From: a bacterium
GTDB lineage: Bacteria; Bacteroidota; Bacteroidia; Chitinophagales; Saprospiraceae
Length of the DNA: 64,000 nt
Assembly: GCA_024742755.1 (NCBI GenBank)
Contig: JANSXW010000009.1
Span: 1-64,000, forward strand
Reading direction: 5' to 3'
Of the stretch, positions 11,649 through 64,000 are shown in pieces. Both the position numbers and the translations under genes were made by a program. Below the pieces are notes generated by a model. The model saw only the letters and a list, made by a program, of their open reading frames with translations. It had not been told where the DNA came from and made no database searches. Positions within the stretch are counted from its first letter, which is position 1, and the number at the start of each line of letters is the position of its first letter.

Positions 11649-12727
11649 GGCCGAAAATCCGTTTTTAGGGCTTTACGCTCCTGATAGCGCTGCCGGGCAA
11701 GCTCCAGCAACCGCTCAATCAGGTCTGAGTAGCTGAGCCCCGCTGCTTCCCAAAGCTGTGGGTACATGCTGATGTCCGTGAACCCAGGCAGGGTGTTGAC
11801 TTCATTGACGTAAATGTCGCCTGCAGGCGTCAGGAACATATCCACCCGTGCCATCACTTCGCATTCCAGCGCCTTGAAAGCTTTCAGGGCAATGGCTTGC
11901 AAGCGCGGCAGTTCCTCCGGCCTGACCTCTGTAGGGATTAGCAGCTTTGCCGTATCGGGGTCTTCGTACTTGGCATCAAAGGAATACTCTTCAGGGGTAA
12001 TGATTTCACCCACCTCGGTGGCTTCAGGATTTTCATTGCCCAGCACGGCGCATTCCACCTCCCGGCCCTTTATCATTTCTTCAATCAGGACTTTTCGGTC
12101 GTAACGTAGCGCATCTGCCACAGCAGCTTCAAACTGTTCAGCGCGGCTCACTTTGTGTACGCCTACGGAAGACCCCATATTGGCGGGCTTGACAAACACC
12201 GGGCTGCCCAGTTTGGCTGTGACTTGCTCGTAGGTCCACTGCCCTGCCTCTTCCTTTCGGATAACGATATCCTGTGCCACTTTGACGCCTGCCTGCCGGA
12301 GTAGCCGTTTTGCCACGTCTTTGTCCATCGACACGGCAGAGCCAAGCACGTCCGGCCCCGCAAAGGGAAGATCGATGGTACGGAGCAGGCCCTGCAAGAC
12401 CCCGTCCTCCCCTGTAGGCCCGTGCACGATCATAAAGGCCGCATCAGGTTGGGGCGAAAGGGGCTGAAGCGTATCCAAACGAAGGAACTGCCCCGTGCTT
12501 TTACCTGGGATAATGGCCAGCTCAGGCCCGGCTTCCCCGACAAAGCGGCCCAGGCTGCTCTCTTCCTGCAGCCGCCACCGGCCCGCCCGGTCAATCCCAA
12601 TGAGCACAACTTGAAAACGGTCCCGGCGGATTGCTGCCAGGATGTTTTTTGCAGAACGGACAGATATTTCGTGTTCCGGGGATTGCCCCCCGCAGATAAC
12701 GGCTATGGTCTTCACGGATTGGTTCAT
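11645..12727 (-). CDS. ddl: D-alanine--D-alanine ligase
   Basis: VICGGQSPEHEISVRSA, PAFVKPANMGSSVGVHKV-type ATP-grasp, EVNTLPGFT. Confidence 0.95.
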   Translation of the reverse strand: MNQSVKTIAVICGGQSPEHEISVRSAKNILAAIRRDRFQVVLIGIDRAGRWRLQEESSLGRFVGEAGPELAIIPGKSTGQFLRLDTLQPLSPQPDAAFMIVHGPTGEDGVLQGLLRTIDLPFAGPDVLGSAVSMDKDVAKRLLRQAGVKVAQDIVIRKEEAGQWTYEQVTAKLGSPVFVKPANMGSSVGVHKVSRAEQFEAAVADALRYDRKVLIEEMIKGREVECAVLGNENPEATEVGEIITPEEYSFDAKYEDPDTAKLLIPTEVRPEELPRLQAIALKAFKALECEVMARVDMFLTPAGDIYVNEVNTLPGFTDISMYPQLWEAAGLSYSDLIERLLELARQRYQERKALKTDFRP

Positions 12728-12815
12728 TTTAGGGTGGCAAGATAGGACAAGCCTGCTTTTGAGCGAAAAATTGTAAGTTTATTCTTTGAGCAAACAAAGG
12801 TTTAAACAGCTATTT

Positions 12816-15047
12816 ATGGATAAGATAATTCGTTTTTGGTGGATTGCGCTGTGCCTCTTCCCTGCTTTAAGCGGGGCACAGGTGCAGTTGGTAGCGCACG
12901 GGCAGCCTAAGGGCCGCATCGTTATGGATCAAACCATTGAGGCCGATTCCCTGGCTGCGGCACTGCTGCAACGGTTTATAGGGGAGATGAGCGGGGCAGA
13001 ACTGCCCGTTCAGGACTTTCGGGCTATCTCAGAAGCCCGGCCCGGTGATGTATTGATTGGCGCATTTCAGTTGGATAGCTGGAGCAGTCCGCCCGCTATG
13101 TTGGACAGCCTGGTGGAGGATGGCTTTTTGATCCATACCCAAGACGGCTACCTGCGCCTGCTCAGCGGTGGGGGCAACGGCAGCGTGTACGCGGCGGTCA
13201 CCCTGCTGGATGACTATCTGGGGATGGACTACTTTGCGAAAGAGACTTATACGTTGCCCCAGCAGAAGGATATCAACCTGCCGGCAATGAGCCTCGAAGA
13301 CCACCCTGCCTTTACTTACCGTCAGACCTTCAGTTACGGACTGGAAGACCCCGTTTACAAGTACTGGTTCCGACTGGAAGCACCGGGAGAAGCCTTTGCC
13401 GGCAATCTGTGGGTACACACCTTCGACCGGCTCTTGCCATCGGATCAGTTTGGCGAAAGCCACCCCGAGTACTACTCCCTGATCAAGGGCAGGCGGCAGC
13501 CCGGCAAGGCTAGTCAGTGGTGCCTGACCAACAGCGAGGTATTGGAGCGCGTAACGCATCAGCTGGACTCGATTTTCGAAGCCCACCCGGAGCACGATAT
13601 CATTTCCGTAAGCCAGAACGACGGCAATTTTACCTATTGTACCTGTGATAATTGTGCCGCGATAGATGAACGGGAAGGAAGCCCAAGCGGCACGCTCATC
13701 CACTTTGTCAATCAGCTGGCGGACCGCTTCCCGGGCAAGACCATTTCCACGCTGGCCTACCTTTACAGCATGCACCCGCCCAGGCACCTCAAGCCCCGTC
13801 CGAATGTCAATATTATGCTGTGCAGCATAGATGCGAAGCGGGAAGTGCCCCTGACCGATAATGCCACAGGGCAGGATTTTGTCAAAGCCCTTAAAGGCTG
13901 GGCAGAGATTTCCGACAATATTTTTGTCTGGGATTACGGGATCAATTTTGATAACCTCGTGGCTCCTTTTCCCAACTTTCATGTATTGCAGCCCAACATG
14001 GAGCTGTTTCACCGGCACAATGTCCGCATGCATTTTGCCCAGGTCGGGGGCAAGCGGGGCGAAGACTTTTCCGAGCTGCGCGCCTATATGCTCTCCCGCC
14101 TGCTCTGGAACCCCTATCAGAATGCGGATAGCCTGATGCTGGCGTTTATGGAAGGCTACTACGGGGCGGCTGCGCCTCATTTGTACCAATACCAGAAGAT
14201 GCTGGAAGCGGCACTGCTGTCCAATGAGGTTCCGCTTTGGATATATGATACCCCCGTCTCGCACAAATCGGGGATGCTGCGTGCCCGCCTCCGCGCCCGT
14301 TACAATGAGCTTTTCGACCGGGCTGAAGCGGCTGTGGCCAATGACCCTGAATACCTGCGGCGCGTACGCCGGTCCCGCCTTCCCTTGCAGTATGCCGGGT
14401 TGGAAATCGCCCGTACCCTCCCGGAGCGCGACCCTGCACGCCTAAATATTATGCTCGACACCTTTGCGGCCCGCACGGCCCGCTACGGGGTGAAGACCCT
14501 GAACGAGCGCAACAACGCCCCGGGCGACTACTGCCGGCTTTACCGGGAGCGCTACCTGCGCAAACCGGCCGGCAACCTTGCGGCAGGTGCTAAAGTGACC
14601 TGGGAAGCGCCCCCCGCTCCCGGCTATCTGGAGGGTGCAGCCGAAGCCCTTACCGATGAACTCTACGGTGGCACCACTTTTGGCGACAGCTGGATTGGCT
14701 GGGAAGGCAGGGATGGCAGCTTTATAGTGGACCTGGGCAAGGTGCAACCGGTGCAGTCGGTGGAAACGGATTTCCTCCATCAGCTCGGGGCCTGGATTTT
14801 GTTGCCCAAAAGCGTCACTTATGAAATATCCGGGGACGGCACCAATTTTGAGCGCTTTGGAAAGGAAATACTACCGGAAGACCGGTCGCGTGAGGTCAAG
14901 TTCGTAGGCGTTAAGGCGGAGCAGCCGAAGCCTGTATCTGCCCGCTACATCCGGGTAGAAATAGAAGGCGTAAAGGTTTGCCCTTCCTGGCACTACGGCG
15001 TGGGCTATCCCGCCTGGTTCTTTGTGGACGAAGTGGTGGTGCGCTAG
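12816..15047 (+). CDS. Secreted DUF4838-type protein with C-terminal discoidin (F5/8C)-like domain
   Basis: Signal peptide after ATG 12816 (FWWIALCLFPALSGA); alpha-glucuronidase-like N-domain; QNDGNFTYCTCDNCAAID; C-terminal ARYIRVEIEG beta-sandwich. Confidence 0.75.
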   Translation: MDKIIRFWWIALCLFPALSGAQVQLVAHGQPKGRIVMDQTIEADSLAAALLQRFIGEMSGAELPVQDFRAISEARPGDVLIGAFQLDSWSSPPAMLDSLVEDGFLIHTQDGYLRLLSGGGNGSVYAAVTLLDDYLGMDYFAKETYTLPQQKDINLPAMSLEDHPAFTYRQTFSYGLEDPVYKYWFRLEAPGEAFAGNLWVHTFDRLLPSDQFGESHPEYYSLIKGRRQPGKASQWCLTNSEVLERVTHQLDSIFEAHPEHDIISVSQNDGNFTYCTCDNCAAIDEREGSPSGTLIHFVNQLADRFPGKTISTLAYLYSMHPPRHLKPRPNVNIMLCSIDAKREVPLTDNATGQDFVKALKGWAEISDNIFVWDYGINFDNLVAPFPNFHVLQPNMELFHRHNVRMHFAQVGGKRGEDFSELRAYMLSRLLWNPYQNADSLMLAFMEGYYGAAAPHLYQYQKMLEAALLSNEVPLWIYDTPVSHKSGMLRARLRARYNELFDRAEAAVANDPEYLRRVRRSRLPLQYAGLEIARTLPERDPARLNIMLDTFAARTARYGVKTLNERNNAPGDYCRLYRERYLRKPAGNLAAGAKVTWEAPPAPGYLEGAAEALTDELYGGTTFGDSWIGWEGRDGSFIVDLGKVQPVQSVETDFLHQLGAWILLPKSVTYEISGDGTNFERFGKEILPEDRSREVKFVGVKAEQPKPVSARYIRVEIEGVKVCPSWHYGVGYPAWFFVDEVVVR

Positions 15048-58970: not shown

Positions 58971-60689
58971 ATGATCAACTTCCGACAAACTGCCAATTTT
59001 ATCTGGGAAATCGCCGACCTGCTCCGCGGGGACTACAAGCAGAGCGACTACGGCAAGGTGATCCTGCCCCTGACCGTACTCCGGCGACTCGATGGGGTAC
59101 TGGCACCGACCAAGCAAAAGGTACTCGACTACCTGCCAAAATTGGAAAGCACCAATGTGCAGAATGTCGACCCGATCCTGAATAAGGTGGCCAAGCTCAA
59201 CTTCCACAACCGCTCCAGGTACGACTTTGAAACGCTGGTAGCGGACGCAGACCATCTTGCCGCCAACCTGCGGCATTACATCAATGGCTTCTCCGAAAAT
59301 GCGCGGGAGATCATCGAGTACTTTGATTTTGATGTACAGATCGACCGGCTGGAGAAAGCCGACCTGCTGTATCTCGTGGTCAAGCGCTTTCAGGAGGTAG
59401 ATATGCACCCCGATAACATGAGCAATGTGGAGGCCGGCTACCTGTTTGAAGAACTGATCCGCAAGTTTGCGGAAATCTCCAATGAGACGGCCGGGGAGCA
59501 CTTTACCCCGCGCGAAGTGATCCGCTTGATGGTCAATCTGCTGTTTATCACCGATAAGGACATCCTGACGCAGGCGGGGATTGTAAAGACCCTCTACGAC
59601 CCGGCGGGCGGTACCGGCGGTATGCTGACCGTCTCCGATGAGTACGTGCGCGAGCTGAACCCGGACGCTCGCCTGGAACTATTCGGGCAGGAAATCAACC
59701 CGGAATCCTACGCCATCTTCAAGGCAGATATGCTGATCAAGGGGCAGAATGCTTCCAACGTCAAATATGGCAACAGCTTTACGGAAGACGGCCTGGAGGG
59801 CTATACCTTTGACTACATGCTCTCCAATCCGCCCTTTGGCGTATCATGGAAAAAGGTGCAAAAGCAAATCAAAAAGGAGCACGAAGACCTAGGCTTTGCC
59901 GGCCGTTTTGGCGCGGGCCTGCCGAGGGTGAGCGATGGCTCGCTTTTGTTCCTGCAGCACATGATGGCTAAGATGAAACAGACGGAACAGGGCAGCCGCC
60001 TCGCCATTGTCTTCAATGGTTCACCGCTTTTTACCGGTAATGCAGGCAGTGGAGAAAGCGAAATCCGGCGCTGGGTGATCGAAAACGACAGGCTGGAAGC
60101 GATCATAGCCCTACCCGATCAGCTCTTTTACAATACCGGTATTTCTACCTACATCTGGGTGGTAGACAACCAAAAGCGCCCCGAGCGCAAAGGCAAGGTA
60201 CAACTGATCGATGCCACCGCTATGTTCAAGAAGATGAGCAAGAGCCTGGGCAACAAGCGGCACGAAATTAGCGAGGAGCAAATCGCGGAAATCACGCGCA
60301 TCTATGGCGACTTTGAGGAAGGGCCCTATTGCAAAATCTTCGACAATGAAGACTTTGGCTACAGCCGGATTACGGTGGAGCGCCCACAGCGGGACGAAAA
60401 CGGGGAGATCATCACCGACCGCAGGGGCAACCCCAAAGCGGATAGCTCGCTGCGGGATTACGAAAATGTGCCGCTGAAGGAGGACATTGAGGCCTATTTT
60501 GAGCGGGAAGTGCTGCCGCATGTCGAAGACGCCTGGATTGACTTTGACAAAACCAAGGTGGGCTATGAAATCAACTTTACCCGCTACTTTTACGAGTATA
60601 CGCCGCTGCGGCCGACCGAACAGATAAGGAAGGACATAGAAGAATTGCGCTTGACCATGCACGGGATAACGGAAAAAGCTGTAAATTAA
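58971..60689 (+). CDS. hsdM: Type I restriction-modification N6-adenine methyltransferase subunit
   Basis: MINFRQTANFIWEIADLLRGDYKQSDYGKVILPLTVLRRLD; GEHFTPREVIRLM; DPAGGTGGML; LSNPPFGVSW. Confidence 0.97.
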   Translation: MINFRQTANFIWEIADLLRGDYKQSDYGKVILPLTVLRRLDGVLAPTKQKVLDYLPKLESTNVQNVDPILNKVAKLNFHNRSRYDFETLVADADHLAANLRHYINGFSENAREIIEYFDFDVQIDRLEKADLLYLVVKRFQEVDMHPDNMSNVEAGYLFEELIRKFAEISNETAGEHFTPREVIRLMVNLLFITDKDILTQAGIVKTLYDPAGGTGGMLTVSDEYVRELNPDARLELFGQEINPESYAIFKADMLIKGQNASNVKYGNSFTEDGLEGYTFDYMLSNPPFGVSWKKVQKQIKKEHEDLGFAGRFGAGLPRVSDGSLLFLQHMMAKMKQTEQGSRLAIVFNGSPLFTGNAGSGESEIRRWVIENDRLEAIIALPDQLFYNTGISTYIWVVDNQKRPERKGKVQLIDATAMFKKMSKSLGNKRHEISEEQIAEITRIYGDFEEGPYCKIFDNEDFGYSRITVERPQRDENGEIITDRRGNPKADSSLRDYENVPLKEDIEAYFEREVLPHVEDAWIDFDKTKVGYEINFTRYFYEYTPLRPTEQIRKDIEELRLTMHGITEKAVN

Positions 60690-60722
60690 GTTCTTCATTT
60701 TACCACAACTAACTGGCTGAAG

Positions 60723-62003
60723 ATGTATATCACAAAAGCAGTACTCAATAAAATCCGGAATATTGATCATCTGGAGATATCCTTCTCTAAGCCAGCGGGA
60801 TGGCATGTACTCATCGGGGATAATGGAGCTGGAAAATCTACTATTCTTAGGGCAATTGCTTTAGCAATTATCGGACCATATGAGTCTAGTGCCCTTCGTT
60901 TGGGACTGCACAGTTTCCTGCGTATGGGGTTTGATGAAGGATCTGTGGAATTGATGGTAAAAAGACATGCTGATCATGATAGATATGCGACAAATTCAGC
61001 CCCACTAAAGCGCCCATTTAATGCCGGAATAAAGATTAAAAGAGTAGGCAGCAATGGAAGGAGTACAGCCAAGATTGAAACACTGAGAGAATACAAGCAT
61101 GCCAAAAACTACATCTGGAGTAGTAAAGAAGGCTGGTTCGCCACCTCTTTTGGTCCATTCCGTCGCTTTACAGGGGGCAATAAAGAATGGGATAAAGTCT
61201 ACTACGCCAATCCCCGGGCTGGCGCTCATCTCTCTATATTTGGAGAAGATGTAGCCCTGACCGAAAGCCTCGAATGGTTGCGAGAACTCAATTACAAGCG
61301 GTTGGAGCAAAATGATGAGGCCACCTTTATTTTGAACAATCTCCGAAACTTCATCAATAAAGGGGAGTTACTACCTCATGGCAGCAAAATCGAAGACGTT
61401 TCCTCAGAAGGCGTTTATTTGCTGGATGGCAATGGGCAACAAATTGAAATCACGGAAATGAGCGATGGTTTCCGATCTATACTAAGTCTAACTTTTGAGC
61501 TGTTGCGTCAGATGATCTTAACTTATGGTGCAAAAAAAGTATTCAAGGGTTTTGAATCCGATGATTTTACCATTTCCATGCCCGGTGTGGTTATCATTGA
61601 TGAGATAGATGCACACCTGCATCCCACCTGGCAAGCACGAATTGGGCAATGGTTTACTCGCTGCTTCCCGGAAATACAGTTTATTGTTACCACACATAGC
61701 CCCATTATTTGCCGGGCGGCCGACCGTGGCTCTGTATGGCGATTGGCAGCACCTGGTTCTAACGCACAAGCGGAGCAAGTGACAGGCACTGCGCTTAAAC
61801 GCCTGATTTACGGCAATATACTTGATGCCTATAGTACAGAGATGTTTGGAGAAGGCACTACTAGCTCTCCGGACACCACTCGGATGCTGGAGGAACTGGC
61901 GCGGCTCAATAAGAAGTCGATCATCGGAGAGATTTCAGATGAAGAACGGGCACGACGGGAGGAGCTTTTAAGCATACTGCCTACAGAATCGGTGAGCTCA
62001 TGA
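60723..62003 (+). CDS. AAA/ABC-type ATPase (RecF/PtuA-like)
   Basis: Walker A GDNGAGKSTILRAIA; signature-like MSDGFRSIL; Walker B GVVIIDEIDAHLHP; H-loop TTHSPII. Confidence 0.9.
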   Translation: MYITKAVLNKIRNIDHLEISFSKPAGWHVLIGDNGAGKSTILRAIALAIIGPYESSALRLGLHSFLRMGFDEGSVELMVKRHADHDRYATNSAPLKRPFNAGIKIKRVGSNGRSTAKIETLREYKHAKNYIWSSKEGWFATSFGPFRRFTGGNKEWDKVYYANPRAGAHLSIFGEDVALTESLEWLRELNYKRLEQNDEATFILNNLRNFINKGELLPHGSKIEDVSSEGVYLLDGNGQQIEITEMSDGFRSILSLTFELLRQMILTYGAKKVFKGFESDDFTISMPGVVIIDEIDAHLHPTWQARIGQWFTRCFPEIQFIVTTHSPIICRAADRGSVWRLAAPGSNAQAEQVTGTALKRLIYGNILDAYSTEMFGEGTTSSPDTTRMLEELARLNKKSIIGEISDEERARREELLSILPTESVSS

Positions 62004-62806
62004 TACGGTTGCCTGATAAAAGTTTATCAGATGCTACGCTTGCGGCCCTGGCGAACTACCAACAAGAGGTGAATGGGGCGGGCGCGTACGCTGAGCAAGT
62101 AGCAAAGGCCAAGGATATCTGGGGTGCCAGACGCCGTAACAGGCCTTTTGATGAAGTCAAAAACGTGCTGACAGAAATGTGCTCCGGTGCCCGCCGTTGT
62201 GGGTACTGTGAAGACTCCATGGCAGATGAAGTCGAGCATATCTGGCCTAAAGATTTATATCCAGAACGTACTTTTGTCTGGGAAAACTACCTCTATGCTT
62301 GCGGGCCATGCAATGGGCCTAAGAACAATAGGTTTGCTATTTTTCCAGATGCCAACCCCACACAAAAGACGGAGCTTTCACACCCAAATGCGGGACCGGT
62401 ACAACCACCTTTAGGTCGCCCGGTACTTATTGACCCCAGAGTAGAAGACCCCCTGCAATTCCTCTGGCTCGATGTCACCGGCACTTTTGCTTTCACCCCT
62501 GTGGAAGATGATGAGAGCACTATCAGCTGGAAGCGGGCAGATTATACCATTGATGTCTTAAACCTCAACAGCCGGGATGCCCTGATTGAAGCCCGCAGAA
62601 ACGCCTATGGCAGCTACCGTAGCCGTTTGTTCGAGTACGTGACACGCATGGAAAACAACGAGGATGAAGCTCAGCTGCAAGCCATTGAACAGGAAATAAA
62701 GCGGGAAGGGCACCCCACTGTTTGGCGGGAGATGAAACGGCAGCAAGTATTTATCTCAGAGCTTAAAGACCTTTTTGACCGAGCCCCACAGACCCTAAAT
62801 TGGTAA
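62000..62806 (+). CDS. HNH endonuclease (PtuB-like)
   Basis: RRCGYCEDSMADEVEHIWPKDLYPERTFVWENYLYACGPCNGPKNN; ATGA overlap with upstream ATPase. Confidence 0.88.
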   Translation: MIRLPDKSLSDATLAALANYQQEVNGAGAYAEQVAKAKDIWGARRRNRPFDEVKNVLTEMCSGARRCGYCEDSMADEVEHIWPKDLYPERTFVWENYLYACGPCNGPKNNRFAIFPDANPTQKTELSHPNAGPVQPPLGRPVLIDPRVEDPLQFLWLDVTGTFAFTPVEDDESTISWKRADYTIDVLNLNSRDALIEARRNAYGSYRSRLFEYVTRMENNEDEAQLQAIEQEIKREGHPTVWREMKRQQVFISELKDLFDRAPQTLNW

Positions 62807-62827
62807 ATATCCTTAAATCAAAACCAC

Positions 62828-64000
62828 ATGACCCTTCAGCATAACGATAACCACCCTTTTTCGCCTTACCCGGCATATAAGGATTCGGGGATTGAGTGGA
62901 TTGGGGAGATTCCAGAGCATTGGGAAATAAAAAAACTAAAGTGGAATATCAAAGTAAATAGTGGAGGAGGAATTGAGTCAGAAGATATTTTGCCGTTAGG
63001 AACTTACTCCGTATACGGAGGAAATGGAATTACAGGTTACTCAGAAAATTATAATTATGATGGGGAGATCTTGATTTTAGGCCGGGTAGGAGCATATTGT
63101 GGTAGCGTGTATTTAATTTCTGGAAAAAACTGGGTCACTGATAATGCGTTGGTAGTTACTACTGATGGTAACAAGGAGTTTTTATTCTATACGCTTTTAC
63201 TAATGGACTTAAATAGATTCGCTAGTAAAAATGCTCAACCACTAATTACTGGAACATTAGTTAAAAATCAATTTTTTGCTGCCCCAACTTCAATTGAACA
63301 AACCACCATAGCCAACTTCCTGGACCACAAAACCAACCAGATCGACACCGCCATAGACAAGCACCGGCAGCTGATCGAGCTGCTGCGGGAGCACCGCGCC
63401 GCCATCATCAACGAAGCGGTGACCAAAGGCCTCAACCCGGATGCGCCCATGAAGGACTCCGGGGTGGAGTGGATTGGGGAGGTGCCGGCGCATTGGGAGG
63501 TTACAAAAGTTGGATATTTATTAAGTTTTATAGGCTATGGGTTTACTAATCCTATGCCAACGAAAAGAGAAGGTGTTTTCATGTTGACAGCAAACGATGT
63601 GAGAGATGGTTTCATTGATTTTGAGAATGCCCGTAAAACTTCCATAAAAGCATACGAGCAAAATCTCACTGATAAAAGTAGACCAGAGCTAAATGACGTT
63701 TTACTAACCAAAGATGGAACATTAGGAAGAGTTGCTATTTGTAATAAAGTGCCAGTTTGCATTAATCAATCAGTTGCTGTACTGAGGGCTAAGAAAAGCC
63801 AAATCGTTCCTGAGTTTTTAAGTTTTTTGCTCCGTTCTCATACCTATAATGATAGAATGATTTTCGATGCAGGTGGAACTACGATTAAGCATATTTACAT
63901 TACGCGACTATCTAAAATGGAGATATGTATTTCACCCAAATTAGATGAGCAGAAGAAAATCGTAAATTTCATCCAATCCGAAACCACCCGCATTGACCGT
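62828..64000 (+). CDS. hsdS: Type I restriction specificity subunit, partial (runs off window end)
   Basis: Manually translated open frame to 64000 (391 codons, no stop); two half-repeats KDSGIEWIGEIPEHWE and KDSGVEWIGEVPAHWE; IANFLDHKTNQIDTAIDKHRQLIELLREHRAAIINEAVTKGL. Confidence 0.95.
   Translation, partial: MTLQHNDNHPFSPYPAYKDSGIEWIGEIPEHWEIKKLKWNIKVNSGGGIESEDILPLGTYSVYGGNGITGYSENYNYDGEILILGRVGAYCGSVYLISGKNWVTDNALVVTTDGNKEFLFYTLLLMDLNRFASKNAQPLITGTLVKNQFFAAPTSIEQTTIANFLDHKTNQIDTAIDKHRQLIELLREHRAAIINEAVTKGLNPDAPMKDSGVEWIGEVPAHWEVTKVGYLLSFIGYGFTNPMPTKREGVFMLTANDVRDGFIDFENARKTSIKAYEQNLTDKSRPELNDVLLTKDGTLGRVAICNKVPVCINQSVAVLRAKKSQIVPEFLSFLLRSHTYNDRMIFDAGGTTIKHIYITRLSKMEICISPKLDEQKKIVNFIQSETTRIDR

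Follow-up and report, generated by a model that had tools for sequence, protein, structure and literature searches.

The DNA analysed here, referred to as the window, is a stretch of 64,000 nucleotides at the start of contig JANSXW010000009.1 (assembly GCA_024742755.1), from a member of the Saprospiraceae. A type I restriction-modification (R-M) operon is located at its end, and two genes predicted to encode the Septu proteins PtuA (an ATPase) and PtuB (an HNH nuclease) are nested between the hsdM and hsdS genes of this operon. The locus is a further example of the known pattern of a defence nested in another defence and not a new kind of system. Judging from sequence comparisons, the pair is read with modest confidence as an autonomous Septu abortive-infection nuclease, which would be co-expressed and co-transferred as cargo of the hsdM–hsdS slot.

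Organization of the operon and identity of the nested pair

The contig is 80.7 kb long and extends 16.7 kb beyond the end of the window. The complete operon, in which all genes are co-directional, displays the order hsdM–ptuA–ptuB–hsdS–fic–hsdR and comprises the following features:

58971..60689, + strand: hsdM, type I R-M methylase subunit, 572 amino acids (aa); open reading frame (ORF) calling, HsdM_N E=6e-26, N6_Mtase E=4e-57, PADLOC MTase_I E=2e-270
60723..62003, + strand: ptuA, predicted Septu ATPase, 426 aa; ORF calling, PADLOC PDLC00269, AAA_21/AAA_15
62000..62806, + strand: ptuB, predicted Septu HNH nuclease, 268 aa; ORF calling, PADLOC PDLC00340
62828..64114, + strand (the window ends at 64000): hsdS, specificity subunit, 428 aa; Methylase_S E=5e-27
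64220-65317, + strand (past the window): fic, SoFic-like Fic gene occupying the second slot, hsdS–hsdR
65326-68313, + strand (past the window): hsdR, 995 aa; homology across the surveyed loci

An initial sequence-only reading of the window had proposed the coordinates of the first four genes, their common direction and intergenic gaps of 33 bp (hsdM/ptuA), -4 (ptuA/ptuB) and 21 bp (ptuB/hsdS). All were confirmed by ORF calling, and the 4-bp overlap between ptuA and ptuB was read directly from the letters as ATGA. The same reading held that the pair is nested, with operon-like spacing, in a type I R-M operon, and this was borne out when hsdR was located upon extension of the contig. The three genes defining a type I R-M system, hsdM, hsdS and hsdR, are thus found in one operon with intact motifs, which were recognized by eye as DPAGGTGG and NPPF in HsdM and as ELKNQ, AGSGKS and DEAH in HsdR. 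We infer a single transcript for the hsd and ptuAB genes; a promoter scan of the locus returned fewer sites than were obtained in shuffled sequence. Since the six-gene order is also present in the independent assembly of Phaeodactylibacter luteus, the locus is no assembly accident.

The insert had also been described as richer in AT than hsdM. This is true of both genes (45.7% GC for ptuA and 50.8% for ptuB, against 53.5% for hsdM), but it is not specific to the insert, as hsdS (42.0%) and fic (45.6%) are equally AT-rich; hsdR has a GC content of 53.3%. An insert-specific low GC content was consequently rejected as a sign of recent insertion.

The assignment of the pair to Septu, already proposed from the letters, was substantiated by family models. 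PtuA matches PADLOC PDLC00269 over residues 1-423 (E=1.8e-156) and PtuB matches PDLC00340 over its full length, residues 1-268 (E=5.5e-110), while the HNH domain of PtuB scores slightly under the Pfam cutoff. Solved PtuA chains were matched by sequence (E down to 2e-19) and solved PtuB chains by a profile built from the PtuB alignment A2 (E down to 1e-18). The predicted structures of PtuA and PtuB, obtained from three-row alignments, are of low confidence, with a mean predicted local distance difference test (pLDDT) score of 42 and 45, respectively. No reverse transcriptase (RT) was found among the operon genes by ORF calls and domain matches, and neither retron RNA nor any other RNA was found by Rfam at the locus; the NCBIfam equivalog models for retron PtuA and PtuB match weakly, far under their cutoff. 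The full-length PtuA and PtuB matches, together with the absence of an RT or retron RNA at the locus, place the pair by sequence in Septu type I. Models of PrrC, the anticodon nuclease of another type I R-M operon, were not among the listed matches, and the nuclease is here a separate HNH protein.

The motifs of both proteins are intact, as first noticed by eye. PtuA contains a Walker A motif GDNGAGKS (K38), an SDG signature (247-249), a Walker B motif IIDEID (D293/E294) and a TTHS H-loop; Walker A, Walker B and the H-loop are invariant in the PtuA alignment A1. The motif residues of PtuB are C67/C70, E79-H80, N96 and C101/C104-N105, of which H80 and N96 are invariant in A2. In Septu EcB88, immunity is lost when K43 or D316 of PtuA, or H75 or N91 of PtuB, is mutated (PMC13096335). 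The residues corresponding to these essential positions appear intact here, the residue-to-residue match being deduced from the motifs, and the spacing of 16 residues between H80 and N96 is that of H75 and N91 in EcB88.

Comparison with the operon of Phaeodactylibacter luteus

The operon of P. luteus displays the identical six-gene order. Identity to the window amounts to 93% for HsdM, 89% for HsdR, 90% for Fic, 82% for PtuA and 79% for PtuB. The genes surrounding the operon differ between the two genomes; in an empty-site comparison, one neighbour gene was without a match in P. luteus and the others were located elsewhere. Synonymous divergence (dS) is 1.20 for ptuB, 1.21 for hsdM and 1.20 for hsdR, with a lower value for fic (0.67) and saturation for ptuA. 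The ratio of nonsynonymous to synonymous divergence (dN/dS) of ptuB is 0.11 between the two Phaeodactylibacter operons, indicative of purifying selection. Considering the equal dS of ptuB, hsdM and hsdR and this low dN/dS, PtuAB has probably been kept intact beside hsd in both genomes over a long period, during which HsdS was swapped. The HsdS proteins (window 62828-64000 compared with positions 12106-13467 of the P. luteus locus, L016) are 43% identical despite the 93% identity of HsdM, an exchange of sequence specificity.

Survey of related operons and their cargo

A scan of genome contigs with single proteins yielded two loci, and neighbourhoods were then sampled by genome search. HsdM relatives were collected from 396 genomes of a phylum sample and from plasmids, giving 38 complete operons. 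The survey is based on this one phylum sample and on plasmid and viral collections, using mechanical ORF calling and home-made hidden Markov models; loci are designated below by their survey labels (L012 and so on). Extra genes occupy the hsdM–hsdS or the hsdS–hsdR slot in about 33 of the 38 complete operons, and 91 of the 107 cargo ORFs, as called mechanically, are co-directional. The cargo families recognized by Pfam and PADLOC include Schlafen/AlbA, PD-(D/E)XK and YhcG nucleases, Fic, DUF4268, RhuM, AbiE, GmrSD, HerA and several 'PDC' candidates. Fic-domain genes, such as the one following hsdS in the window's operon, recur as cargo across other hsd operons.

PtuAB is nested in five of the 38 operons (window, L066, L056, L063 and L161). 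With P. luteus and two IMG/VR contigs, L172 (3007-11366) and L188 (1632-10348), the number of hsd-nested loci reaches eight, so that the arrangement, for which the sequence-only reading had called for a neighbourhood survey, is not unique to the window. The order hsdM–ptuA–ptuB–hsdS is shared by the window, P. luteus and L066. At the five other loci (L056, L063, L161, L172 and L188), the pair is found between hsdS and hsdR, the order in L172 and L188 being hsdM–hsdS–ptuA–ptuB–hsdR. The pair therefore lies between core genes, is co-directional with them and recurs in independent genomes, as is characteristic of an embedded defence. PtuA was encountered five times inside the 38 operons (99 kb) and never in their 322 kb of flanking DNA (p=7e-4), an enrichment which points to more than the mere proximity of defence genes.

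The content of the slot varies between closely related operons. L066 and L067, whose HsdM are 93% identical, carry PtuAB and a Schlafen-type protein, respectively, in the same slot, and the relatives of L161 (L138, L140, L141 and L145, with 94-98% HsdM identity) carry other genes as cargo. L063 and L188 (78% identity for HsdM, 80% for HsdR) both harbor PtuAB, from lineages that are 33% identical. As judged from these comparisons, the slot is exchangeable, yet PtuAB has been taken up there repeatedly.

Integrase- or recombinase-like genes were observed close to the nested operons of L172 and L188. These surroundings suggest that the whole unit may move on integrating elements. Searches of plasmids with the PtuB of L066 and L063 gave nothing or weak matches, and the PtuB of L161 retrieved stand-alone pairs and one retron-looking pair.

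Phylogeny of PtuA

In a tree of 49 PtuA sequences, the distribution of the hsd context requires at least four changes (gains or losses), and grouping of all hsd-nested PtuA in one clade is rejected (p-AU 7e-50). Four context changes are again obtained in an 85-row PtuA tree. The nesting of PtuAB in hsd operons is, by this phylogenetic evidence, repeated and independent. The PtuA of the window groups with stand-alone PtuA (L017 and L012-L015); in these pairs devoid of hsd (L012, L013, L014, L015 and L017), PtuA is 45-63% identical to that of the window. An even closer relationship is seen between the nested L066 and the stand-alone L102, whose PtuA are 84% identical.

Proposed function and alternatives

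PtuAB systems generally consist of an ATPase oligomer holding PtuB, with a PtuA6B2 composition, and their targets differ: DNA is reported for Septu of E. coli ATCC 25922 and tRNA-Tyr for EcB88 (PMC12948488, PMC13096335, PMC11555353). The favoured mechanism, that of an autonomous nuclease carried as cargo, can be summarized as follows. One transcript would yield both the R-M proteins and PtuAB. R-M would act as the first barrier and cleave incoming unmodified DNA, while ATP-bound PtuA would keep PtuB inactive within an oligomer. Once a phage has passed R-M, an infection cue would free or activate PtuB, which would cleave nucleic acid and halt phage growth by abortive infection. Nesting would bring common expression and allow both systems to be transferred horizontally together; the Hsd proteins would not be required for PtuAB to function. 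Such independence is favoured because the cargo is easily swapped and close relatives stand alone. A comparable autonomy is documented for TgvAB, a module lying within a type I R-M operon of Vibrio cholerae, whose protection does not depend on HsdR activity (PMC11411939).

Several points weigh against this reading. The PtuA clade formed by L161, L172 and L188 is confined to hsd operons, and the related hsd cores L056, L063 and L188 acquired PtuAB of different lineages; the hsd-only clade and the repeated acquisition are hints that the pair is more than neutral cargo. Furthermore, the enrichment count given above includes the window itself, without which four occurrences remain inside the operons and none outside (p about 0.003).

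The first alternative is a guardian of R-M resembling PrrC. The Hsd complex would silence PtuAB, and a phage antirestriction factor inhibiting Hsd would release it to stop translation or destroy nucleic acid. The precedent is PrrC, whose gene lies within EcoprrI, a type IC hsd operon; the R-M enzyme keeps the protein sequestered until T4 Stp sets it free (PMC3874165, PMC12707154). Septu EcB88 cuts tRNA-Tyr and PtuAB of retron-Eco7 depletes tRNA-Tyr (PMC13096335, PMC11555353); in retron-Septu Ec83, PtuAB is restrained by its partner, RT with multicopy single-stranded DNA (msDNA), according to a study cited in PMC12948488. The repeated nesting and the existence of an hsd-only PtuA clade point in the same direction. 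However, close PtuAB relatives stand alone and are presumably regulated without Hsd, the cargo is freely swapped among near-identical hsd cores, alignments with stand-alone relatives reveal no extra Hsd-binding domain, and no PrrC homology appears among the listed matches. The sequence-only reading had envisaged such a second-line effector coupled to R-M; given the stand-alone relatives and the swapping of cargo, an exchangeable autonomous module fits at least as well. A silencing of PtuAB by Hsd is accordingly judged unlikely, and a guardian built from Septu that would cut tRNA or DNA upon antirestriction release is retained as a doubtful candidate. If true, it would parallel PrrC in function, having evolved from nuclease parts of unrelated origin and having been acquired on several occasions.

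A second alternative is passive hitchhiking, in which the hsd junctions would simply be permissive for insertions and ptuAB would gain transcription and mobility with no functional tie to R-M. The high occupancy of the slots, the predominance of co-directional cargo and its many unrelated families are in line with this explanation, as are the integrase- or recombinase-like genes adjoining two nested loci on viral-collection contigs. It accounts poorly for genes that purifying selection kept intact beside hsd while dS rose to about 1.2, and for the repeated, independent choice of PtuAB for hsd slots, and appears rather improbable.

The last alternative, also raised in the sequence-only reading, is that PtuB serves as an alternative R-M nuclease directed to DNA by the sequence specificity of HsdM/HsdS; it is compatible with the location of the pair in the window, P. 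luteus and L066, where hsdM precedes and hsdS follows, but a complete HsdR is encoded downstream, the five other loci have the pair between hsdS and hsdR, the family also occurs without hsd, and HsdS was replaced between the Phaeodactylibacter operons while PtuAB was kept at about 80% identity, which argues for the absence of a fixed HsdS partner and renders the idea very improbable. HsdS-guided cleavage by PtuB was rejected on the grounds that the slot varies and HsdS is exchanged.

Relation to known systems

The locus agrees with Septu type I in its two proteins, which match the families over their full length, and in gene order, overlap and catalytic residues; it differs by its location within a type I R-M operon, Septu type I being usually stand-alone. 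The likeness to PrrC in EcoprrI lies in an ATPase-type nuclease toxin in a type I R-M operon, with relatives of both cutting tRNA; PrrC is nevertheless a single polypeptide with the ATPase fused to its own anticodon-nuclease domain, whereas two proteins with an HNH nuclease are found here. TgvAB (V. cholerae VPI-2) and DarTG2 (RptR island of enteropathogenic Escherichia coli, EPEC) are likewise two-gene defence modules between type I R-M genes, the latter between hsdS and hsdR (PMC12255303). Both are unlike PtuAB, TgvAB being a GmrSD-like type IV restriction system and DarTG2 an ADP-ribosyltransferase toxin-antitoxin. In Retron I-A/Septu type II, and in Hma, in which an embedded Septu is mentioned through a citation in PMC12255303, PtuAB is similarly a portable module beside the core of another system; the present pair differs in residing in a type I R-M operon that contains no RT or retron RNA.

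The embedding of defences within defences, type I R-M included, is already established by PrrC, DarTG2, TgvAB and a 'guilt-by-embedding' preprint on embedded defences, considered here as cited in PMC12255303 and PMC12988326. The literature searched, which did not include the Payne et al. 2024 preprint, yielded no account of Septu within an hsd operon, a weak negative. Septu has so far been described as stand-alone, as a retron effector and embedded in Hma. That PtuAB became nested independently and more than once in type I R-M operons, and was also encountered in BREX-like operons and in a single type III CRISPR operon (see below), supports the view of PtuAB as a portable effector module. L066/L102 and L066/L067 constitute natural pairs for testing the dependence of a nested module on R-M, PrrC being dependent and TgvAB not.

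Other contexts of PtuAB and of nested cargo

At L126, L129, L130, L131 and L133, PtuAB and a GmrSD gene are nested in operons resembling those of bacteriophage exclusion (BREX). The methylase, GmrSD, pglZ and brxL genes were confirmed by Pfam in L130; the other four loci were judged from similar ORFs. In these BREX-like operons, an AlbA-like gene apparently interrupts pglX, leaving it as two ORFs.

Two further loci belong to the genome of the window. Contig C285 (L006, 1165-8328) carries a PtuA/PtuB-like pair of 602 and 220 aa within a type III operon of clustered regularly interspaced short palindromic repeats (CRISPR), flanked by a repeat-associated mysterious protein (RAMP) gene on one side and cas10/cmr2 on the other; in four other sampled genomes, this PtuB has relatives that lack neighbouring Cmr genes. 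Contig C364 (L007, 1667-2929) carries an orphan PtuA-like ATPase directly downstream of a recR-looking gene, with no HNH partner on this short contig. Finally, in an hsd operon of an Allochromatium plasmid (L068, 3808-6675), a VapC-type toxin gene and small partner genes are present in both slots, hsdM–hsdS and hsdS–hsdR.

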